Below, piece after piece: positions 9,298-19,230 of a DNA stretch of 20,735 bases. Below the pieces are notes generated by a model. The model worked only from the letters and a program-made list of their open reading frames with translations. It made no database searches and was not told the DNA's origin. Position 1 is the first letter of the stretch. Every line of letters begins with the position of its first letter. A program made the translations under genes and the position numbers. The DNA is from a virus: the IMG/VR virus record IMGVR_UViG_3300042923_000270, positions 1 to 20,735 of that record, one strand, 5' to 3'.

Positions 9298-10182
9298 CTA
9301 GAAGTCGCCGATGAGCCAGTCGCTGTCGGACGGCTGGGTGAACTTGTAGCCGACGTTCGGACGAGCCTCGACCATCTTGTTCTCGGTGAGAACCATCGGA
9401 CCCGCCGGAACGACCTCGTCGTCGACGTAGTACGTGACACCTGCGACCGTGGGAACGGTCATGGTGTTGGATGCGTTGTCGTAGGTCGGAGCGGTCGGAG
9501 TGACCGTGAGAACCGCTCCGGAGAAGAGCGCGATCACGGCCGCCGGAGTCGGCAGAGACGGGTCAGTACCCGCCGTACCGTAGAGGAACTCCTCCAGAGT
9601 GGCCAGGTCATCCGCGTCGACCTTCGTCGAGTCGATCGTGATGGTGGCCGTCGGCTTGTACATCGTGCCCGAGATCGTGCCGACCTCGACCGGAGTCGTG
9701 GTGAACTCCCAGCTGAAGGTGATCGCCTCGGGCGAGTCGTTGATGGTGGCGTAAGCCTTCTCGGACGGAGCTGCGAGAGCGCCGTAGACGAGGTGGAGCT
9801 TGTAGCCGTGATCCTGACCGTCCAGGTCGTTGCCGACCTTGGTGCGGTAGGACAGACCGAACGTCTTCCGGCTCTGCTGTCCGATGCCGACCCCGGGGGT
9901 CGGAGAGGCGGTGCCGTCGCACTGCTCGAACTCCGGCGGGTACATGAAGGCCTCGATCGTGCCACCGAATTCCTCGGCGGAGACCAGGTTCAGGTACTTG
10001 ATGTTGTCCGCGTACTGCGGGTTGGACTCGGCGCCCGAAGGCGACTCGGTGACGGTCGTCAGACCATTCCAGGACGATCCGGTGTCGTAGACACCTGCGC
10101 CATTGGGAATGTAGAGGACACCATGGTCGACGCCGGTCTCGTAGAGCCGCTCGCCCGCCTTGTCCCACGTGAGCGTGGTCAT
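9298..10182 (-). CDS. Major tail (tube) protein with C-terminal decoration domain
   Basis: This 294-residue protein is the main tube subunit. The core (about 1-215) contains LYETGVDHGVLY, YPPEFEQCDG, SYRTKVGNDLDG, GYKLHLVYGALA and INDSPEAITFSWE, all typical of this tube family. Residues about 227-294 form a separate domain (TPTAPTYDN, then PTVAGVTYYVDDE, then NVGYKF) homologous to the C-terminus of the capsid protein. Codons are strongly biased to C or G in the third position, as expected for a high-copy protein. The ATG at 10182 follows GAGGGAG and lies 16 bases after the terminator gene. It stands directly before the chaperone gene, the normal position. Confidence 0.92.
   Translation of the reverse strand: MTTLTWDKAGERLYETGVDHGVLYIPNGAGVYDTGSSWNGLTTVTESPSGAESNPQYADNIKYLNLVSAEEFGGTIEAFMYPPEFEQCDGTASPTPGVGIGQQSRKTFGLSYRTKVGNDLDGQDHGYKLHLVYGALAAPSEKAYATINDSPEAITFSWEFTTTPVEVGTISGTMYKPTATITIDSTKVDADDLATLEEFLYGTAGTDPSLPTPAAVIALFSGAVLTVTPTAPTYDNASNTMTVPTVAGVTYYVDDEVVPAGPMVLTENKMVEARPNVGYKFTQPSDSDWLIGDF
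9301..9504 (-). other. C-terminal decoration domain of the main tube protein
   Basis: About 68 residues (227-294), with TPTAPTYDN, then VPTVAGVTYYVDDE, AGP and NVGYKF. It matches the capsid C-terminal domain block by block. The second tube protein at 7928-8716 lacks it. Confidence 0.75.
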
Positions 10183-10843: not shown

Positions 10844-12859
10844 CTAGGCGGCCGGACGGGTGAAGGGCCACGAGTCCTCGGCGTTGGTGGCGAAGTAGTA
10901 GCCAGCGTTGGCGCTCGCGTAGACCGTCATGGACTCACCAGCCGCCAGAGCCGTCTGCGGTCCTGCGGTCAGGGTGACACCCTCGTCGTCCTTGTACGTC
11001 ACGCCGGTGACGGTCGGGATGGTGATGACGCCGGTACCCTTGTTGAACGCGGGCTTGGTCGGGGTGGCCAGAACGTTCGCCGCAGCGGTCTTCTTGATGA
11101 CCAGAGCCGACTTGGGGCGGACCAGAGCACCCGACATGCGGGTCTCCAGCAGGTACTTCTGCTGGTTGTAGTCGATGTCGAAGTCCTCGAACATCGTCAG
11201 CTCGCCACCCTTGTCGGTGCCGATGTTGTAGTCGTCGAGGTTGACGATGATGCCGACCAGGTCGGCGATCTCCTTCATCGGCTCGACCGTGTGGATCGCG
11301 GCGACGCCCAGGGCGTCAGCGACTTCCTGCTTCGTCTTGTAGTGACGGCGACCCATGCCATCGCGGGCCGTCAGGAACTTGTTGAGGTGCGGGATCGTGG
11401 TGTAGAAGGACGGGGTGCCGGTTCCCTTGTAGAACTCCATGCCACCCATGACCGCTTCCACGATCTCCTCGTAGGAGGAATCCGCGTTGTCGACGTTCAC
11501 GTTGACCGTGGTGACGAAGAGCTCGTGGTCGTTGTAGATCGACCGGAGACCGTCACCAGCCGCACCGCTGGGCTCCTTGATCTTGTCCTCGTCGGTCACC
11601 TGACGGCCGTCACCGATGAGGATCGCACGAGCGATTTCCTCCTCGGTCATGAGCCGCATCTCGCCCTTGAGGAAGGCGACGACGTCGAAGTCCGTGATGT
11701 CGAGCATGTCGTCACGGTCGAGCTTCTGCTTCTTGTAGATCGTGGTCGGGCCGGTGGTCCGCTTGGTGACGCCGAACCACTCTTCCAGCTTGTAGTTCCC
11801 CTTGATGTAGCCCTTGGCGCGGGCCTCCTCCTGCCGCAGGTCAGCCGCGAAGGTCTTGATGCGGGAGAACGGGGTGTGACGGGTGCCGTTGAGGACGGAG
11901 GCGACCCACTCGGTGCGACGCTTCTCCAGCTCGATCGTCCCCGTGGCCATCTTGGCGTCCGGGAACAGGATGTCGATGTCGGTGATGCCGTGCTGGAGGT
12001 TCGCCTCGGCGTAGTTCTCGACAGCAGTCTTCAGGGAGCCCGACTTCTGGGCATCCTGGAAAATGCCCTTGAGAGCATCGTGCGACAGCTCGTGCTTGGG
12101 CTTGCCGTCCTGGGTCTTGTCGTTCTGGTCGAACACGTTGCGCGACATGTCGTCGGCTCCTTCCTGGTGGGTGAGGTCACCCTCGCCGGGCTGGTTGTCG
12201 GAGTGGGAGGCGCTGGCTGCGGCGTCCTCGGTGGCGACACCGATGAGGTAGTGAACTACGTTCTTCTGTTCTTCGGTCATTCCGTCGTAGACGTCCTTGA
12301 CCGTTACGTCCTCGTCGTCATCGGCATGAGAGAGGTCGTCCTGAACCGTCACGGTCTCAGTCTCGTCCTCCACGGTCTCGTCCTCCGAGTGCTGAATCGT
12401 GAGACCCATGGTGATCACAGCGTCCTCGTCCGACTCGACGATAGAACCATCGCCGTGCTGGATGTTGACGAAGTCGATCTTGGCACCAGGATTGGCACCG
12501 GCCAGAACGAGGCTGACCTCGCGGATGGTTCCGTGGGTGACCGTCTTGGCGTGCTCGGTGAGTCCGTTGGCGAAGATCGAGAGAGAATCGAGATCCTCGT
12601 GCTCGACCGACTCCTTGGCAGCCTGAGCCTTGGGCGACTTGTTGAAGTAGCCGTAGGCGTACATGCCGTCGTCACGGGCTTCCAGGAGGGCGTGACCGAG
12701 CACGTTCTCCGGGTCGCTGTGGGCGTGCTGCCAGACGAGCGGAATCTTCCGGCCATCCATGTGGCGGAAAGCATCCGAAGTGATGGTCCGCCCATCGGAG
12801 CACTTGAGTCCAGCCTTGGTGGCGTAGCCACTGAAGTCGGGCTTACGATTTGCTGCCAT
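10844..12859 (-). CDS. Prohead protease - major capsid protein fusion (HK97 type)
   Basis: A 671-residue fusion. Residues 1-138 form an S78-family prohead protease: WQHAHSDPENVLGHA gives the likely catalytic His45, LDSLSIF the likely catalytic Ser94, and EVSLVLAGANPGA closes the fold. Residues about 139-237 are a very acidic linker with YDGMTEEQKNVVHYLIG, probably acting as the scaffolding (delta) segment. From Met238 (MSRNVFDQND) the HK97-fold capsid protein follows, ending in an Ig-like or small beta domain (about 597-671). The ATG at 12859 has AAAGGAG upstream. A good internal ribosome binding site precedes Met238, so free capsid protein may also be made. Codons in the capsid part are strongly GC3-biased. 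Confidence 0.92.
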   Translation of the reverse strand: MAANRKPDFSGYATKAGLKCSDGRTITSDAFRHMDGRKIPLVWQHAHSDPENVLGHALLEARDDGMYAYGYFNKSPKAQAAKESVEHEDLDSLSIFANGLTEHAKTVTHGTIREVSLVLAGANPGAKIDFVNIQHGDGSIVESDEDAVITMGLTIQHSEDETVEDETETVTVQDDLSHADDDEDVTVKDVYDGMTEEQKNVVHYLIGVATEDAAASASHSDNQPGEGDLTHQEGADDMSRNVFDQNDKTQDGKPKHELSHDALKGIFQDAQKSGSLKTAVENYAEANLQHGITDIDILFPDAKMATGTIELEKRRTEWVASVLNGTRHTPFSRIKTFAADLRQEEARAKGYIKGNYKLEEWFGVTKRTTGPTTIYKKQKLDRDDMLDITDFDVVAFLKGEMRLMTEEEIARAILIGDGRQVTDEDKIKEPSGAAGDGLRSIYNDHELFVTTVNVNVDNADSSYEEIVEAVMGGMEFYKGTGTPSFYTTIPHLNKFLTARDGMGRRHYKTKQEVADALGVAAIHTVEPMKEIADLVGIIVNLDDYNIGTDKGGELTMFEDFDIDYNQQKYLLETRMSGALVRPKSALVIKKTAAANVLATPTKPAFNKGTGVITIPTVTGVTYKDDEGVTLTAGPQTALAAGESMTVYASANAGYYFATNAEDSWPFTRPAA
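10847..11071 (-). other. C-terminal decoration domain of the capsid protein
   Basis: About 75 residues (597-671 of the fusion), with TPTKPAFNK, then IPTVTGVTYKDDEG, AGP and NAGYYF. It is homologous to the C-terminal domain of the main tube protein and lies beyond the capsid fold, so it is probably displayed on the outside of the head. Confidence 0.75.
12149..12162 (-). promoter_or_regulatory. Internal ribosome binding site before the capsid part of the fusion
   Basis: Reading leftward, AAGGAG occupies 12162-12157, followed by eight bases and an in-frame ATG at 12148 that encodes Met238, the expected N-terminus of the capsid domain (MSRNVFDQ). Strength and spacing are near ideal. The inferred product is a free 434-residue capsid protein in excess of the protease fusion. 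The element is directly visible; its use is not proven. Confidence 0.55.
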
Positions 12860-12875
12860 TTTGACTGACTCCTTT

Positions 12876-13361
12876 CTACTTCGTAGTCTTCTTGGCTCCG
12901 ATGGAGCCGTCTTGGCGCATCTTCTCGATCCGCTTCCGAATGGTCTTGATCTTTTCGTTCAGCGACGTCACGTCATCCGAAAGAGCCTTCTCCGGATTCT
13001 TCTTCCGGTAGGCTTCCGATGCCTTGGCGGCTTTGGCCTTTTGAGTGGGTGTCAGCTTCCGGTCAGGAGTCTTGGAGCCACCGGTTTCCGTCTTCTTGGG
13101 TCCGGTCTTCTTGGGCTCTACACCGCTTCGGGCCTTGGCTTGTTTGGTCAGTTCAGCAAGGACCGACTGGAGTCGCTCAAGACGTCCCTTAAGGGCATCT
13201 ACCTGGGCTTCAAGCTTCTTCCGCCTTTCGGCTTGTCGCTGAGCTCTCGTCTTCTTAGGGGGTGGGCCCTGACCGGGCTTTCGTCCCTTCAACTTACGAT
13301 TCCTGAGATAGTACTCGCGCCGTTTGGTGGCGTCGTAAGCGTGGACGAGGTTGTCAGCCAT
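12876..13361 (-). CDS. Basic coiled-coil protein with EYYLRNRKLKGR motif, between portal and capsid
   Basis: A 161-residue, very Lys/Arg-rich protein. Residues 7-27 contain YDATKRREYYLRNRKLKGR, a short motif I recall in varied phage head-region proteins, always of unknown function. A long coiled coil follows (about 41-75), then a Pro/Lys/Thr-rich segment with PKKTGPKKTETGG, and a second helix rich in Lys/Arg (about 128-153). Scaffold-like composition and the position just before the protease-capsid fusion suggest a head assembly or DNA-associated internal protein, but neither is shown. The ATG at 13361 overlaps the portal's end by eight bases; its ribosome site is weak, which suggests coupled translation. 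Confidence 0.75.
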   Translation of the reverse strand: MADNLVHAYDATKRREYYLRNRKLKGRKPGQGPPPKKTRAQRQAERRKKLEAQVDALKGRLERLQSVLAELTKQAKARSGVEPKKTGPKKTETGGSKTPDRKLTPTQKAKAAKASEAYRKKNPEKALSDDVTSLNEKIKTIRKRIEKMRQDGSIGAKKTTK

Positions 13362-14709
13362 CTTCTATCCCCAGATCGGAGAAGATCGCGTCTAGAGAGC
13401 CATTGAGTTCTGCTAGACCGCTCTGGAGAAGATCGGGCTCATCATCAACATCGTCTTCGTCCGCTTCCGGTGGAGCCGCCCCAGTACCGAGATTGGTTCC
13501 GGGCTGAGGCATGTTGCTGTTGACGAGTTGATCGGCCTTCGGGTCCTTGGACGGCTTGAATCCGATGCCCTGACGGATCTCGTTCGCCGAGAGAACCTCG
13601 TTCCTCGTGAACTTGTCCGCGATCTCGGCAACCTGCTCCATAGGAACAAGTGCGAACGGGTCCCGGAAGAACATGATCGACTGTCCCTGGGACCGAGCGG
13701 TCTTGGTCAGGAACTTTCGCTTCATCTCTTCGGAGATGGCTCGGACGATCGGCTTGATAGTCCGGTTGTGATAGTTCAGCATGGCCTTTTCATCGGCCGT
13801 ACCGTTCATGACTTCTTTGGTCAGACCGAGCTGAGAGTACAGCTCTTCAGTTAGGTACTCGATCTGCTTCAGGAAGTTGTTCTCAACCGGTCGGTTCAAC
13901 TGCTGGATCTTCTCAGTACCATCGGTATAGGCGATACCGTAAGTACTACCCTTTAGCTGAAACTCAATATCTTTCCGTCGCTGTTCCGCCTGCGCTCGAC
14001 GGGCTTCGGACTTGATCACGTACGGAAGCTGAATGATCATGTCGAGCTTACCAGAACTGGTTTGCTCGTCAACCGAGTCCAACATTCCAAGCTTCTTGGT
14101 CAGACGCTTGAGAGTTGAGTTCGGTTCGTTCATCACCGCATAAAGCGGGTTCTCGATGATTGCGACCATCTTCTTGGGGATGGTAATTTCTTTCCGTTCC
14201 CCATTGCGCTCATCGTAAAGACTTACGCGTACATGCTGCGGATGCCATCCCACAACTTCACCGACACGAAGAGACTTGATGTCATAGCCCCCCGTTTCGA
14301 GAGGCGAAATATCGGTCTCCACCGGAACGATAGCTGCGACGCCCTTTTCGAAGAGGGTCATCGCTATGTCTTGCTGGAACTGCTGTGGACCCTGATCGAG
14401 GTTTGGATCGACCTGAATACAATCCTGAAGTCCACTGGTCATGTCGCCGGTGTATCGGCCGTCGGCATCTGTTCGGACATGACGAATATCGATACCGGCT
14501 ACATCGATACCAACCCGAGTGTAGATCGACGAGATGATGGAACGCTCGTTCGAAAACGACAGTCGGGTACGAGAAGGAGATGCATAGTATCCGAGACCAC
14601 CGACACCATTGTGTGAGTGCGAATGGAGACCATCCAGATAGTTCTCGTCCAGGAAGGCATTCCAGCTATGCTTGAACCCTTCCTTCACACGGGAAAGCAA
14701 GCCTGCCAT
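13354..14709 (-). CDS. Portal protein (HK97-type)
   Basis: A 451-residue protein forming the dodecameric DNA channel at one capsid vertex. Family features include an N-terminal region with SIISSIYTRVGIDVAGIDIR, a beta-rich central clip and wing, the stem-type segment LGLTKEVMNGTADEKAMLNY followed by TIKPIVRAISEEM, and the late motif LSANEIRQGIGFKPSKDPKA. The C-terminal 50 residues are acidic and probably disordered (EADEDDVDDEPD). The ATG at 14709 has a strong AGAGGAGGTG site. The gene lies between the terminase and capsid groups as expected, although two motif-tagged genes separate it from the terminase. Confidence 0.9.
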   Translation of the reverse strand: MAGLLSRVKEGFKHSWNAFLDENYLDGLHSHSHNGVGGLGYYASPSRTRLSFSNERSIISSIYTRVGIDVAGIDIRHVRTDADGRYTGDMTSGLQDCIQVDPNLDQGPQQFQQDIAMTLFEKGVAAIVPVETDISPLETGGYDIKSLRVGEVVGWHPQHVRVSLYDERNGERKEITIPKKMVAIIENPLYAVMNEPNSTLKRLTKKLGMLDSVDEQTSSGKLDMIIQLPYVIKSEARRAQAEQRRKDIEFQLKGSTYGIAYTDGTEKIQQLNRPVENNFLKQIEYLTEELYSQLGLTKEVMNGTADEKAMLNYHNRTIKPIVRAISEEMKRKFLTKTARSQGQSIMFFRDPFALVPMEQVAEIADKFTRNEVLSANEIRQGIGFKPSKDPKADQLVNSNMPQPGTNLGTGAAPPEADEDDVDDEPDLLQSGLAELNGSLDAIFSDLGIEDG

Positions 14710-14745: not shown

Positions 14746-15702
14746 TCAGTACTTCCGGTTTTCCAGTTCAACGAGATTGTTCTCTGAACCACGGATGTCG
14801 CCGTTGCTCATCACATTACTGGACTTGGATCCTAGAGCATTCGTGGCGAAGATAACCAAGGGCGTTTCGCCGATCACCCCTGCGTCCATCTCGTCAACGA
14901 TCGCACCGAATCCTTTCTTACGAAGAGCACTGAACAGACCCTGAGCCCTTCCGTCGCTCCAACTTCCACCACTCAGTTCTTGGTATGCCTTGAGGGCATG
15001 ATCGTCCGTAGAGTCTCCAGAAAGAACGCCCTTGAGCGTCTCCAGAACCGTGCCCAGCTTAGGGACCCGGATCTCTTCCTTGGCATGGAAAGTGATGTGG
15101 TGAAGGTTGGGGGTGTCCAGCTCTTGTCTGAACTGAGCTACGTATCGGTCGAAATCTTCTCGGCTATGGGTAGCGTAGGTTGCAGACTTGAACGAGGTTT
15201 CGCCCTTCGTAGACAGGCGATGAAAGGTATGACCTGCAGGAAGAGAGAATTCCTCTCGGTCGAAAGACTGAGGTTTGAAGTAGTCGTCCCTCGCCCACGT
15301 CTTGATCTTGGAATGCATGACGTGTTTGGAGAAGGTTTCGAGGTCGATCGACTTCCCGCGAAGTTCCTCGATTGACGCAACCGTTCTTTTCTCAGCTATG
15401 ACATTAGCGAGAATAAGAGCGGTTATGGCAGCCCCGGTGGTAAGGGCTACTTTGTGATTCGAGGCAAACTTCTTGGCCTTGGCTGCTGCACTGTTCTTGG
15501 GCTTGTCGCCGTCGATCTTAGCCTTGAACTTCTCTTCGTTCTTGGCTAGGTTGGCGGCACCTTCCTTCAGAGGAGGAGTCTTCTTCGGCTTATGCGCCGC
15601 CTTGTACTTCTCCGTTACAGCGTCACGTTCGGAGGTCTCCTCTTCTTTCCGGATCCCCCAACGCATGCCCTTTACGCCATAGTGAATGATCTCATCGCTC
15701 AT
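14746..15702 (-). CDS. HYGVKGM-motif protein with possible ADP-ribosyltransferase-like domain
   Basis: A 318-residue protein. Residues 7-18 carry the tag HYGVKGMRWGIR. A lysine-rich stretch (about 30-80) and one hydrophobic, possibly membrane-spanning helix (about 84-102) follow. The C-terminal part (about 150-290) has LPAGHTFHRLST, YATHSREDFDRYVAQF, RVPKLGTVLETL and GFGAIVDEMDAG then TPLVIF. This order resembles ART-fold domains I have seen attached to the same tag in other phages, but I cannot place the catalytic triad with certainty. The ATG at 15702 overlaps the upstream gene by 11 bases and has only a weak ribosome site, so coupling is likely. The CDS is firm; the enzymatic call is tentative. 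Confidence 0.6.
   Translation of the reverse strand: MSDEIIHYGVKGMRWGIRKEEETSERDAVTEKYKAAHKPKKTPPLKEGAANLAKNEEKFKAKIDGDKPKNSAAAKAKKFASNHKVALTTGAAITALILANVIAEKRTVASIEELRGKSIDLETFSKHVMHSKIKTWARDDYFKPQSFDREEFSLPAGHTFHRLSTKGETSFKSATYATHSREDFDRYVAQFRQELDTPNLHHITFHAKEEIRVPKLGTVLETLKGVLSGDSTDDHALKAYQELSGGSWSDGRAQGLFSALRKKGFGAIVDEMDAGVIGETPLVIFATNALGSKSSNVMSNGDIRGSENNLVELENRKY
15649..15684 (-). other. HYGVKGMRWGIR tag, third copy
   Basis: Encodes residues 7-18 of the 318-residue protein. It keeps the His-Tyr-Gly-Val-Lys-Gly-Met core and the Trp-Gly pair but has Arg-Trp-Gly-Ile where the other two copies have Lys-Trp-Gly-Val. Confidence 0.9.
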
Positions 15703-16060
15703 GGTCAGACTTTTTGTGGGCAGAAGCGGCGATGCTGAAGATGCTTACGCCACCGTAAGCTCTGAGCATGTCCTTGGTCGTTGCCTTGCCGTTTGCGATC
15801 CGGTCGTGCTCTGCCTTCAGCTCAGCGCTTCTGCGGGCCGCCCCGCCCCTGAAACCGCCATTCTTGATCGAGAGGTCCTTCCACCTGCTCGACTGAATCA
15901 CGGCCATGTTTTCCAGAGGAGTACCCTTGCCCGCAGCGACCTTGTCGAGAAGGATAGTTCCCTTCCTGAGGTCACCGGTACGAGCCTTCTTGACGCCCCA
16001 CTTCATACCCTTGACGCCGTAGTGAGCAAGCTCTCCCGGCGAAGGATTTCTTTGACTCAT
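15692..16060 (-). CDS. Small HYGVKGM-motif protein, unknown function
   Basis: A 122-residue basic protein. The tag HYGVKGMKWGVKK is at residues 13-25. Then come a Lys/Gly-rich segment, a helix with RRSAELKAEHDRIANGKAT (a pattern I recall in other tagged phage proteins) and a short hydrophobic patch (AYGGVSIFSIAASA) near the C-terminus. The ATG at 16060 overlaps the terminase stop as ATGA and has AAGGAGGAG upstream, so it is well translated. It contains no recognisable catalytic motif. Position between terminase and portal genes and the shared tag suggest a virion or assembly role, which is inference. Confidence 0.75.
   Translation of the reverse strand: MSQRNPSPGELAHYGVKGMKWGVKKARTGDLRKGTILLDKVAAGKGTPLENMAVIQSSRWKDLSIKNGGFRGGAARRSAELKAEHDRIANGKATTKDMLRAYGGVSIFSIAASAHKKSDHER
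15986..16024 (-). other. HYGVKGMKWGVKK tag, second copy
   Basis: Encodes residues 13-25 of the 122-residue protein. The nucleotides over the core are almost the same as in the copy at 18238-18276. Confidence 0.9.
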
Positions 16061-17796
16061 TCGAACTCCTCCTTATGGAGCTTGTATGCCACCCAGGCAT
16101 CCATCAGTGCTGCTACGGCGTCGATCTTGGCGTCCTGACGCTTCTTCAGAAGCTTCCGGTTTCCGTTGGTGTCTTCCAACGTGATCGCATTACCCATAGC
16201 GAAGGTCATCAATGCTTGATCAAATATGAGCCAACGTTCGCCACTGAGAGTCTTGAGTTCCCCAAGCGGGACAGACTCCGTTCTCGCCCCCTGAATCACT
16301 TTCTCGATAGCATGCGGACCATTCTCCGCTTCCCAGCGGCCTACGAACTCCTTGGCGTTGTAGGGGTCGTACCCAAACGCGCGCACGTCATAGTTAGATT
16401 CCTGAATGAAACCATCCAGGTCATCATAGACTTCCATCATGTCGAGAATGCTGCCGTCAAGCACATGGAGACTACCCTCGTCCATGAATTCCTGATACTT
16501 CTGTCTCATGGCACTTTGAAGTTTCAGGAGGGTCAAGGATGAGATGTAGTTTCTCGTCTTCACCCCGAATTTGCCGCGTGACAGTGGAAAGAGGAATGTG
16601 AACGAACAGAAGTCATCACCCTGCGAAAGGTCGGCACCCATAGCACAAGGCAACTGCCAGAATTCCCGGTGAGGATGAGGTAGGGTCTCCTCGTAAGTGA
16701 AGAAGTACGTGTATCCCTCCATCGGAAGCCCGAAACGCTTCGCCAGAATATCGTTCCTGGCCGCAGGAGCCTTTTCGGCTCGTTCAACGTCGAGTTGGTA
16801 AACGTCATAGGTGACGGTCTTTCCGAGGTTGGGGTTCGCCTTCTGCCACATGGCAGGGTTGGCTACTTCTTCGACGTCGTCCAGCTTGTAGTGCCAGATC
16901 GAAACGTGAGGAGCCTGATACTCACCCTTGAGAATATCGGCCAGTTCCATCTTGATGGTGTCGCCACTGCCGTTCCGGACGGTACCTTCGGAACTGACAG
17001 CCACGATCAGATAGTCATCAAGCTTTGAAGCACCCTGTTCGATGGCGCCGATGACATCTTCTCGCAGATCCCCAGACAGCCATTCATCAACTGTTGCTAT
17101 CTTGGTACGAAGACCTTGAAGCTTGTTGATGGTCATCGGCCGTACTTCAAGGATCGAACCCGTGAGGAAGTTCTCGACACCCTTCTTGGTCGCGGCCAGC
17201 TTGACTCGGTTGACCCTTGACCCGGTGGTGTTCTGAAGCGATCCTTCTGTGAGAAACGCGAAGAGCGGTCCCCTGGCCCGGACGATGGACGTTCTGACGG
17301 GTGACATGACCTCGTCAGCCTGCTTCATCGTAGGGGCTGTAGTGATCTGATGAGTGGTGGACGAATCGATGTTCAGAAAATAGCTCTGGAGGCAAGATTC
17401 ATACAACGACTTGGCCGCACCACGGGCAACGATCAGGTACTGCTTTGTCGTAAGGCGCTTCTTGATCACCTTGTCCACGTAACGTCCGCCACGCTCGCCC
17501 GGCTCGTATACGCTTCGATTGACGAAGTAGTACCAGCAGAAAATCTGTTCTGCCCACAGTTTGAACGTGTCAAGCAGGTGAAGATCGGTACCGTCGGTAA
17601 GAGTGAGTTCCGCTTCGCAGTACTTTACGAACCCCTCTACCGGATTGGGATCGTAGTAGATGTTCGGATTCGCGATGAGTGCGTCGATGCGGTTCATCTC
17701 TAGGGAGACTTCCCGGTTTACCGGAATATCGCCGTTCAGTACCGCGTCACGGAATCTTCCGTAGTAGTACGGAACTGCCGTGTTCGACAAGTCCAT
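16057..17796 (-). CDS. Terminase large subunit
   Basis: A 579-residue packaging motor ATPase and nuclease. The Walker A-like loop is at about 122-130 (IVARGAAKS, a slightly unusual form with ARGAAKS). The Walker B and catalytic acid are at 232-238 (KIATVDE; Asp237, Glu238). Nuclease-domain acids are likely Asp389 in GADLSQGDDF, Asp477 in FGYDPYN and Asp559 in AKIDAVAALMDAW. The C-terminal part also has the family-typical RWLIFDQALMTFAMGN. Length is normal for the family. The ATG at 17796 has a strong AAAGGAGG site, 15 bases after the previous stop. Head genes follow directly. Confidence 0.93.
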   Translation of the reverse strand: MDLSNTAVPYYYGRFRDAVLNGDIPVNREVSLEMNRIDALIANPNIYYDPNPVEGFVKYCEAELTLTDGTDLHLLDTFKLWAEQIFCWYYFVNRSVYEPGERGGRYVDKVIKKRLTTKQYLIVARGAAKSLYESCLQSYFLNIDSSTTHQITTAPTMKQADEVMSPVRTSIVRARGPLFAFLTEGSLQNTTGSRVNRVKLAATKKGVENFLTGSILEVRPMTINKLQGLRTKIATVDEWLSGDLREDVIGAIEQGASKLDDYLIVAVSSEGTVRNGSGDTIKMELADILKGEYQAPHVSIWHYKLDDVEEVANPAMWQKANPNLGKTVTYDVYQLDVERAEKAPAARNDILAKRFGLPMEGYTYFFTYEETLPHPHREFWQLPCAMGADLSQGDDFCSFTFLFPLSRGKFGVKTRNYISSLTLLKLQSAMRQKYQEFMDEGSLHVLDGSILDMMEVYDDLDGFIQESNYDVRAFGYDPYNAKEFVGRWEAENGPHAIEKVIQGARTESVPLGELKTLSGERWLIFDQALMTFAMGNAITLEDTNGNRKLLKKRQDAKIDAVAALMDAWVAYKLHKEEFE

Positions 17797-17811: not shown

Positions 17812-18858
17812 CTACCGCTCTGCTGCCATCCGGCGTACTACTACGCCTGCTCCGGCTGTTACTGCCGCCGATGTCCCGCCAGTGGCATAGGCAAGTCCAG
17901 CAGTGACAGCAGTCGTCACACCGGTCTTGACTGCCACACCGGTTGGAGTCTTCAGAAACTGGCGTACATCGTTGACGGTCTTGCCGAGAGCGAGAACCTT
18001 CTTGACCTGATCGTGCCCCCGGTCCACAGAAGACTTCTCAGGCGGAGCTGTCATCATCGTTCGGTACTGACGTTCCAGGTTCATCCGCGTCAGAAGACCC
18101 TGCAGTTCCTGATTGCTGAGGGTTTGGGTACCGCCTTGAGAAATCTTCCTCTGAGCGTTGACAGCAGCCTTCACATCGGCCGAAACAGGCGGAGGCTTTG
18201 GAGCTGAAGCTGAAGCTACCGAAGACTGATCATCAGCTCGACGGACCCCCCACTTCATACCCTTGACGCCATAGTGACTGAGAGCCGTCTGTCCGACCTC
18301 GCTCATGACGGAGTGAGGCGACTGGATTTGTGACATCGCTACCTCCATGTCGTAACGAAAAGGTTTGAGATCGAATGTCGGACCTTCGGAATCTCCGATC
18401 CACAGAGCGACACGGTCGAACTGGACGAAGGTGACTCCAGCGTCGAAGTCGTTCGGGGGCTTCTTCGCCGGGGTTTCGGGATACCCGAGCGTCAGATGAG
18501 GAGTCCAACCTTCGAACTGTTCGGTGCCATGGTAAGCAGCCGAGATGAGAGGATTCTGAAGAAGGTGGTCCCGGAAGGTCTGAATTTTACGGGACAAGTA
18601 GTCCTTGTAGAAGAAGAGTACATCCGCTTTCTTGTCGCCCAGCTCACCCCGTCGATCAACCTCAAGACTGAATTGAAAGAGGAAAGTTGAGGCATAGTCG
18701 ACGTACTCCTGAAGCTTGGTGATCTGTCCCTGATCGTAATCAGGCTCACCCAGGTACAGAAGCGTCAGATGCGGATTCTTCTCGCTCGAAACCTTATGGA
18801 CATAGTCGTTCTCAGACGGAAGAGCGACTACTACAAGCTGGGTACGGGCGCCGTCCAC
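17812..18858 (-). CDS. 2H phosphoesterase fused to an HYGVKGM-tagged C-terminal region
   Basis: A 348-residue protein. Two His-x-Thr motifs, PHLTLLYLG (His30) and TPHLTLGY (His121), about 90 residues apart mark the 2H phosphoesterase (2'-5' RNA ligase-like) superfamily, which acts on 2',3'-cyclic or 2'-5' phosphodiester bonds. Residues 195-207 are HYGVKGMKWGVRR; beyond lies a helical segment and a Gly/Ala/Val-rich hydrophobic tail (about 305-345). I chose the GTG at 18858 because GGAGG lies seven bases upstream; an ATG at 18891 would add 11 residues and overlap the preceding gene by 61 bases. An internal start at 18336 may yield the tagged half alone. Substrate is unknown. Confidence 0.8.
   Translation of the reverse strand: MDGARTQLVVVALPSENDYVHKVSSEKNPHLTLLYLGEPDYDQGQITKLQEYVDYASTFLFQFSLEVDRRGELGDKKADVLFFYKDYLSRKIQTFRDHLLQNPLISAAYHGTEQFEGWTPHLTLGYPETPAKKPPNDFDAGVTFVQFDRVALWIGDSEGPTFDLKPFRYDMEVAMSQIQSPHSVMSEVGQTALSHYGVKGMKWGVRRADDQSSVASASAPKPPPVSADVKAAVNAQRKISQGGTQTLSNQELQGLLTRMNLERQYRTMMTAPPEKSSVDRGHDQVKKVLALGKTVNDVRQFLKTPTGVAVKTGVTTAVTAGLAYATGGTSAAVTAGAGVVVRRMAAER
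18238..18276 (-). other. HYGVKGMKWGVRR tag, first copy
   Basis: Encodes residues 195-207 of the 2H-phosphoesterase protein counted from the GTG start. It is the most canonical of the three copies in the window and lies between the enzymatic domain and the helical C-terminal region. Confidence 0.9.
18337..18346 (-). promoter_or_regulatory. Internal ribosome binding site within the 2H-phosphoesterase gene
   Basis: Reading leftward, GGAGGT occupies 18346-18341, then four bases and an in-frame ATG at 18336. The product would begin MSQIQSPHSVMSEV, run 174 residues and place the tag near its N-terminus, as in the 122- and 318-residue tagged proteins. The element is directly visible; whether it is used is inference. 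Confidence 0.5.
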
Positions 18859-19196
18859 TCTTCCCCCTCCCGATGAACGTTGAGAAGCCATTCGAACTTC
18901 TCGATCTGCTTCTCCATGGAATCAAGAGCGTAGGACGTTCCTGGCGGATCGAATACCAATCGAACCGACATGTAAACGTAAGTCCTCACTTGGCTGAGTC
19001 GAGGATCGTTCCCGATGAAGGCGTCCCACGTGGCCGTGTCGTCTTCGATCATGAAGCCTCCGACTGGGCCGATCCCGAGTTGGTCCAGTCTTGCCAACGT
19101 TGAGTTGATGTGCATGATGATGTCGGTATCGAACGATGTGTCAGTCTCAGGCAGGCCAAGAACCTTCTTGACACTGACAAGGATGCGCTGTTCCAC
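18831..19196 (-). CDS. Head-tail adaptor (gp6-like connector)
   Basis: A protein of about 121 residues resembling gp6-type adaptors that bind under the portal. Visible family pattern: VKKVLGLPETDTSFDTDIIM, INSTLARLDQLGIGP, then RTYVYMSVRLVFDPP and IEKFEWLLNV. I prefer the GTG at 19196 (MEQRILVSVKK) because AGGAGG lies at proper spacing; the GTG at 19205 is too close to it. The end overlaps the next gene by 28 bases, which implies coupled translation. Such genes normally follow the capsid gene; here it precedes the terminase by two genes, about 6 kb upstream of the capsid end in transcription order. Confidence 0.75.
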   Translation of the reverse strand: MEQRILVSVKKVLGLPETDTSFDTDIIMHINSTLARLDQLGIGPVGGFMIEDDTATWDAFIGNDPRLSQVRTYVYMSVRLVFDPPGTSYALDSMEKQIEKFEWLLNVHREGEEWTAPVPSL

Positions 19197-19230
19197 GTGG
19201 GACACCTCCTCTCATTTTGACGGAGTTGGA

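Follow-up and report, generated by a model that had tools for sequence, protein, structure and literature searches.

A tagged 2H phosphoesterase gene with a conserved internal start in a phage head-gene cluster and its possible delivery with the virion

Organization of the locus

The window analyzed here is the whole stretch of 20,735 nucleotides at positions 1 to 20,735 of the virus record IMGVR_UViG_3300042923_000270 (IMG/VR), from a phage of soil bacteria. On its minus strand, genes follow each other in the order HNH, endolysin, connector, 2H-tag-core, TerL, P0003, P0002, portal, coiled-coil protein, and protease-capsid fusion. The relevant features are the following:

18831-19205, minus strand: head-tail connector (PF24829, E 9.2e-40)
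17812-18858, minus strand: 2H-tag-core gene, long product of 348 residues from GTG; the ORF extends to ATG 18891
18367-18837, minus strand: 2H phosphoesterase domain, P0001 residues 19-175 (Pfam, alignment, AF2 model, fold matches)
18760-18771, minus strand: first HxT motif, HLTL, residues 41-44 (H41, T43; invariant, 37/37)
18487-18498, minus strand: second HxT motif, HLTL, residues 132-135 (H132, T134; invariant, 37/37)
18342-18346, minus strand: internal Shine-Dalgarno (SD) sequence GGAGG, conserved
17812-18336, minus strand: nested product of 174 residues, an N-terminally tagged core without 2H, predicted from the conserved SD and ATG
18247-18276, minus strand: tag HYGVKGMKWG (PF23847/DUF7211), P0001 residues 206-215, residues 21-30 of the predicted short product
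18064-18120, minus strand: core motif LSNQELQGLLTRMNLERQY (motif count and core alignment)
16057-17796, minus strand: terminase large subunit (TerL)
15692-16060, minus strand: second tagged protein P0003, 122 residues, cargo without assignment
14746-15702, minus strand: third tagged protein P0002, 318 residues, C-terminal fold weakly ART/RES/NADase-like
13354-14709, minus strand: portal protein
10844-12859, minus strand: prohead protease-major capsid fusion (phrog_3270, E 2.4e-247)

A sequence-only reading of this DNA had placed at 17812-18858 a 2H phosphoesterase that was joined to a HYGVKGM tag and encoded with head genes. The gene is a real minus-strand ORF in which the tag HYGVKGMKWG is present, and with connector, TerL, portal and protease-capsid fusion as neighbors its placement among head genes was borne out. 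The longest ORF starting with ATG (17812-18891, minus strand) encodes 359 residues and is named P0001; residue numbers follow this ORF. The calculated SD:anti-SD ΔG was -10.8 at GTG 18858 versus -3.0 at ATG 18891, and because of this stronger pairing GTG 18858, the start chosen in the earlier reading, is probably the true one. The match of P0001 to DUF7211 (PF23847) had an E-value of 5.8e-12 and a score of 45.2 bits against a curated Pfam cut-off of 27. C-terminal to the tag lies a helical core with the motif LSNxELQxxxxRMNLExQY and a hydrophobic C-terminal stretch. Matches to P0001 were found in 275 phage records.

DUF7211 matched at three places in the window, and none of the three tagged window proteins matched the MuF family in Pfam at E 0.1. 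Neither the internal start nor the two further N-terminally tagged genes had been mentioned in the earlier reading. The order connector-core-TerL-(tagged genes)-portal-protease/capsid was also found in Rhodococcus phage ReqiPepy6, in the Streptomyces phages ClubPenguin, CherryBlossom and LibertyBell, in the Gordonia phages Mossy and Zeph, and in the Arthrobacter phages Trustiboi and Qui, the analyzed Mossy stretch ending within the portal gene. In Lactococcus phage 1706 the head genes follow the same order, but none lies between TerL and portal. As a separate observation, the tail protein (9298-10182) and the protease-capsid fusion (10844-12859), both on the minus strand, have similar ends by eye (GVTY..D.E...G...GY.F), and a match of the capsid query at 9316 was noted as well.

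Fold and active site of the 2H domain

P0001 matched the Pfam family 2_5_RNA_ligase2 above cut-off (E 1.6e-6), and the four residues H41, T43, H132 and T134 were invariant in all 37 aligned homologs. In the AF2 model of P0001, the pLDDT of the 2H domain was mostly above 90. The solved fold most similar to this model was CPDase (Z 12.8, rmsd 4.6, 152 aligned residues), followed by YjcG (Z 12.7, rmsd 3.1, 139 aligned), Usb1 (Z 11.9, rmsd 3.5, 148 aligned), LigT (Z 11.2, rmsd 3.9, 143 aligned), and rotavirus VP3 (Z 10.8, rmsd 3.7, 138 aligned). Acb1 (7t26) ranked below LigT, CPDase, YjcG and Usb1 (Z 8.4, rmsd 3.4, 118 aligned). A CNPase-like fold was rejected, CNPase entries reaching Z 5.5-5.7 only. 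At the sequence level, the 2H profile gave only weak matches to proteins of solved structure (best E 0.22), and the nearest NCBIfam model, TIGR02258 (RNA 2',3'-cyclic phosphodiesterase), scored 26 bits, under its cut-off of 65.7. From the predicted fold and the intact active site, we assign P0001 to the 2H phosphoesterases, of the LigT/CPDase/Usb1 type. This assignment also corrects the label "RNA ligase" that the 2H gene often carries in phage records (e.g., MT310854, OR195046).

The two HLTL motifs had been taken as the mark of a 2H phosphoesterase, with which their invariance, the Pfam match and the predicted fold agree; the structural comparison with Acb1, LigT and CNPase proposed at that time gave a 2H fold, with LigT ahead of Acb1 and Acb1 ahead of CNPase. 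The suggested kinship with T4 Acb1 was not supported. P0001 had no match to the Pfam Acb1 family (PF23474) at E 0.1, whereas the positive control T4 57B matched it with 2.7e-60, which rules out membership of that family by profile; in addition, Acb1 reached Z 8.4 compared to 11-13 for other 2H folds. The earlier reading is supported as to enzyme, active site, tag and head cluster, and is not supported as to the Acb1 relationship. A 2H profile (A3) aligned with T4 57B over 31 columns only, around the second HxT motif.

Occurrence of the 2H domain in tagged proteins

A narrow query restricted to the 2H domain retrieved just three loci, and therefore profile A3 was used. This search, which made no use of the tag, covered the best 80 of 232 loci and yielded 64 distinct 2H ORFs after 16 of 80 ORFs, with repeated 2H domains, had been dropped. 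In 63 of the 64 the tag follows downstream in the same ORF, as in P0001, and the remaining one reaches the end of its locus first. A second list of relatives comprised the best 80 of 295. At the position of the gene in Trustiboi, CherryBlossom and LibertyBell the tagged core lacks a 2H domain. Along a tree built from 100 terminase entries, 34 of them with 2H, presence of the domain changed at least 15 times, compared to an average of 28.8 changes after shuffling of the 2H labels on the same tree. This was a quick tree without cut loci and without terminases ≥ 90% identical to one already kept, and 14 entries without a tagged upstream ORF were dropped from the count.

A conserved internal start between 2H domain and tag

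In the window, the stretch between 2H domain and tag contains GGAGG-TAGCG-ATG, with the ATG at 18336-18334 and a spacer of 5 nt. An SD duplex of ≤ -9 kcal/mol was predicted for 47 of the 62 ATGs between 2H domain and tag in the tag-independent set, where the test picks the best ATG of the stretch and so favors it somewhat; an ATG was absent there in 2 of 64 ORFs. Of the control ATGs inside the 2H domain, none of the 111 in frame and one of the 234 out of frame had such a duplex, and chance was rejected as the source of the internal SD on the basis of these controls. An overlapping ORF set, from which incomplete ORFs were dropped by a rule on query end 155, gave the same result. In homologs with a peptide xEVxM at the internal start, the codons for x and E were NNG-GAG at 42 of 43 sites, compared to 17 of 68 E-V pairs elsewhere in these ORFs, where GAG makes up 57% of the Glu codons. 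Where x is not Met, NNG was observed at 22 of 23 positions versus 7.7 expected. Since the sequences are related, all these counts represent non-independent events. We read the codon pattern as selection on the nucleotides.

The internal SD and its synonymous codons are kept in homologs down to about 40-50% identity; the Gordonia phages in which a long insert separates 2H domain and tag do not have a strong SD. Because SD and ATG are conserved at this place, two products are expected, and we infer that the gene makes the long 2H-tag-core protein plus a short, N-terminally tagged core of 174 residues. In the predicted short product the tag occupies residues 21-30, its usual place in other tagged proteins. 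The internal start might instead be an unused relic of a recent fusion, and the 2H-less cores of the three phages named above would suit such an origin. Conservation of the SD together with its synonymous codons over this range of divergence argues against a relic, which we consider highly improbable.

The tag marks the genes between TerL and portal

In Pfam, PF23847 is a family of unknown function. A tag-like match was present in 239 records of the phage collection, and the exact tag pattern in only 21 stretches from 84,980 bacterial and archaeal species, each represented by one genome. The nine phages with the head-gene order described above (1706 included), complete genomes hand-picked for variety, contained 48 PF23847 matches (47 over cut-off), and all 48 were located between connector and portal. 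Between TerL and portal, 39 of 41 genes are tagged in eight complete phages and the window, counting annotated genes in the former and ORFs in the latter (ReqiPepy6 7/7, ClubPenguin 3/3, Mossy 5/6, Trustiboi 5/5, Qui 8/9, Zeph 4/4, CherryBlossom 3/3, LibertyBell 2/2, window 2/2). Mechanical gene calling in 118 distinct loci, 24 of which have an empty interval and from which repeated gene sets had been dropped, gave 204 tagged genes out of 234, and part of the untagged remainder consists of spurious-looking ORFs or tag variants. These densities describe tagged phages only, because the tag itself served to retrieve most loci. Of the 115 loci retrieved with the tag pattern, 111 contained a recognized head gene, and all 322 tags there were on the strand of that gene.

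The tag lies within the first 30 residues in 291 of 387 unique complete tagged ORFs (longest ORF). By contrast to the tag, the core motif occurs in 68 of the 387 tagged proteins only (1 of 5225 untagged ORFs), and it was ruled out as a universal second element. Co-variation of the tag among unrelated proteins of one phage was weak (z 2.6, relatedness being uncontrolled). Since nearly every gene between TerL and portal is tagged, the distribution suggests that the tag is an address-like module on head-cluster proteins, possibly a label for head-loaded enzymes. A search for publications naming the tag string or DUF7211 found none, and neither the TerL-portal rule nor the nested start is described in the literature covered here.

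In two core genes, Trustiboi gp6 (locus L225, 3242-3721) and CherryBlossom gp7 (locus L228, 2641-3147), the annotated starts cut the tag, which as a whole begins upstream. Short proteins of about 70-80 residues that lack the tag and have starts that look alike are found repeatedly between TerL and portal (loci L108, L114, L201, L220). It is possible that they are partners or immunity proteins of the neighboring cargo.

Cargo of the tagged proteins

Besides the tag, the tagged proteins have little in common. A Pfam scan of 205 representatives of the 387 unique tagged proteins (45% identity, ≥ 80 residues) revealed seven GNAT domains, seven Gln_amidase domains (papain fold toxin 1), five 2H domains, one Ntox50, and one portal; other matches were few, weak and single, most proteins matched nothing, and about nine-tenths had no recognized enzyme domain. 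Mossy gp17 (locus L201, 11669-13213) has the arrangement tag-GNAT-tag-papain and thus combines two tagged cargo units in one protein. We also noted a portal protein with a C-terminal tag (locus L133, 5124-6575) and a protein of 1089 residues with four tag stretches (locus L154, 9464-12730). Most tagged proteins are N-terminally tagged, whereas the 2H domain sits before the tag.

The predicted model of P0002 (pLDDT 84.9) gave weak fold matches (best Z 6.6, rmsd 4.9, 139 aligned residues), too low in score to exclude chance. Most of these were ADP-ribosyltransferases, RES proteins or NADases, and the top Foldseek hit was a cyanophage pre-ejectosome protein (E 0.006). With its N-terminal tag and weakly ART/RES/NADase-like C-terminal fold, P0002 recalls Alt of phage T4.

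Discussion

We propose that the 2H enzyme is carried on a tagged core, packaged in the head, ejected with the DNA, and blunts a host response, a reading that we favor by a modest degree. According to this proposal, the ribosome would make two forms from the gene, the short tagged core and the long 2H-tag-core protein. The core would probably be a minor head protein, and the tag, with or without the core, would bind a conserved component of the prohead. Since no gene separates portal and protease-capsid in phage 1706, this partner is probably the portal, the protease-capsid fusion, the connector or TerL. With such binding, the 2H enzyme would be co-packaged via tag and core, much as T4 proteins are by their common peptide, the CTS, and would then leave the head together with the DNA. 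Once inside the next host, the enzyme would hydrolyze a 2',3'-cyclic, 2'-5' or cyclic-oligonucleotide phosphoester and thereby most likely blunt a nucleotide- or RNA-based response, the substrate being the least certain step. Packaging with the virion fits the distribution of the tag, and delivery is plausible and would resemble that of the internal proteins of T4. Points against the proposal are the large share of tagged proteins that lack a recognized enzyme domain, the weak co-variation of the tag, and the place of the 2H domain ahead of the tag.

A structural role of a tagged protein is on record for Lactococcus phage 1706, whose orf7 occupies the syntenic position, bears two tags, and was entered by the depositors as "structural protein", unlike several other 1706 genes labeled "putative" or "unknown". 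With its tags masked, orf7 matched the actinophage core profile with 21.6 bits. The relatives CHPC971 and P1046 match orf7 (locus L202, 2501-3889) over residues 1-355 only, and the C-terminal part of orf7, behind the second tag, may therefore be cargo open to exchange. Searches for literature on 1706 proteomics and on actinophage virion proteomics found nothing usable. Thermobifida phage P318 looks unrelated, judging by part of its description.

The tag could also serve assembly without ejection, as an assembly or scaffold-binding motif on proteins that have a late function in the cell where the phage is made, for example in anti-defence or RNA processing, and do not reach the next host. Tailed phages commonly have assembly proteins that exit the head before packaging, the tagged genes lie within the head cluster, and our search for proteomes of tagged virions found none, all of which would agree with such a role. 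On the other hand, papain-toxin-like, GNAT, Ntox50 and ART-like cargo makes more sense if injected, and 1706 orf7 was entered as a structural protein. We rate assembly without carry-over as rather unlikely.

Concerning the substrate, the modeled fold leaves the choice undecided, and RNA ends or trimming are about as likely as defence nucleotides. An action on RNA instead of defence signals, be it on 2',3'-cyclic ends or by Usb1-like trimming, for example of host-cut tRNA, is a possibility that we put somewhat short of even. CPDase, YjcG, LigT and Usb1 as best folds point to it, as does the nearest NCBIfam model, an RNA 2',3'-cyclic phosphodiesterase, though under cut-off; against it, fold says nothing on substrate, and the RNA ligase families PF09511 and PF09414 were missing from all six complete 2H-bearing phages, with T4 as the positive control for PF09511. 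Because of this absence, RNA repair together with a phage ligase is less likely. Virion 2H domains have been proposed to be RNases or degraders of nucleotide signals, and for them, too, an association with RNA ligases was noted to be lacking (Iyer et al., 2017; PMC5512222). Recruitment of LigT-like enzymes against nucleotides of immune systems has occurred repeatedly (PMC11410667). An anti-defence substrate, as the sequence-only reading had suggested, is possible. An Acb1-type anti-CBASS enzyme in particular appears unlikely: the common superfamily, the Acb1 alignment over 118 residues and the short alignment with T4 57B around the second HxT motif are in its favor, but the lack of a Pfam Acb1 match, in view of the strong control, and the better fit of other 2H folds weigh against it.

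In a broader form of the proposal, HYGVKGMKWG would be a general head-loading code of the clade with protease-capsid fusions, by which up to nine effectors are packaged and injected and in which the nested start determines how many empty copies there are per armed one; we give this an even chance. The same balance applies to the hypervariable cassette of this code, in which 2H, acetyltransferase, papain-like and ART-like enzymes would be grouped around the terminase and portal genes. Should the tag act as a loading signal, many uncharacterized injected effectors would be flagged by it (205 representatives in the sampled loci, at 45% identity), and both their prediction and their testing would be simple. 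A further use might then be as a peptide handle for loading proteins into such heads, as with the CTS in T4; the 2H enzyme would be a concrete, assayable member and the nested start a testable dosage device.

Comparison with known systems

LigT, CPDase, YjcG and Usb1 all contain the HxT motifs. P0001 resembles them in fold (Z 11-13) and in its two HxT motifs, and differs from them in sequence (11-18% identity in the matches quoted) and in scoring below the equivalog cut-off. T4 Acb1 (57B) shares the 2H superfamily with P0001; however, it forms its own Pfam family and is a standalone protein of 152 residues, whereas P0001 is a tagged fusion outside that family. The T4 57B gene adjoins ipI, the gene of an internal virion protein (locus L298, 92-911).

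In lambda gene C, an in-frame internal start gives rise to Nu3, a short assembly protein contained within a longer enzyme. The nested in-frame start within an enzyme gene is common to both cases, but the enzyme is a protease in lambda and a phosphoesterase here, where the assembly role of the core is putative. The B-C-Nu3 initiator of lambda has been described (PMC3224144, in part).

MuF polymorphic toxins combine a head-linked module with variable effectors. In temperate phages (PMC5576092), the head-linked module is N-terminal and the effectors are C-terminal, according to parts of PMC5512222. They carry a MuF domain instead of a short tag of 25 positions, and many separate tagged genes occur per phage here. 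Fusions of 2H to MuF or portal have been described in polyvalent and virion proteins, and packaging and injection of the 2H domain were predicted for them (Iyer et al., 2017; PMC5512222); here the partner is DUF7211 with a specific core and a nested start. That virions deliver 2H domains has as such been predicted before (parts of PMC5512222 and PMC9503650).

The system of T4, in which Alt bears the CTS, resembles the present one in having a short peptide on otherwise unrelated head-cluster proteins and in its N-terminal position, which holds here for the 291 of 387 tagged ORFs mentioned above, the tag being internal in the long 2H product. In T4, this short common peptide encapsidates diverse proteins, IPI-III and Alt, which are then injected, some internal proteins counter host defences, and Alt is a head-packaged ART (parts of PMC3012670 and PMC5512222). 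The peptide itself is different, and the phages described here have a protease-capsid fusion, putative cargo grouped between TerL and portal, and more than one tag in some proteins. By this analogy, the new part would be a CTS-like addressing of cargo in another phage clade, with its TerL-portal rule and its nested start.
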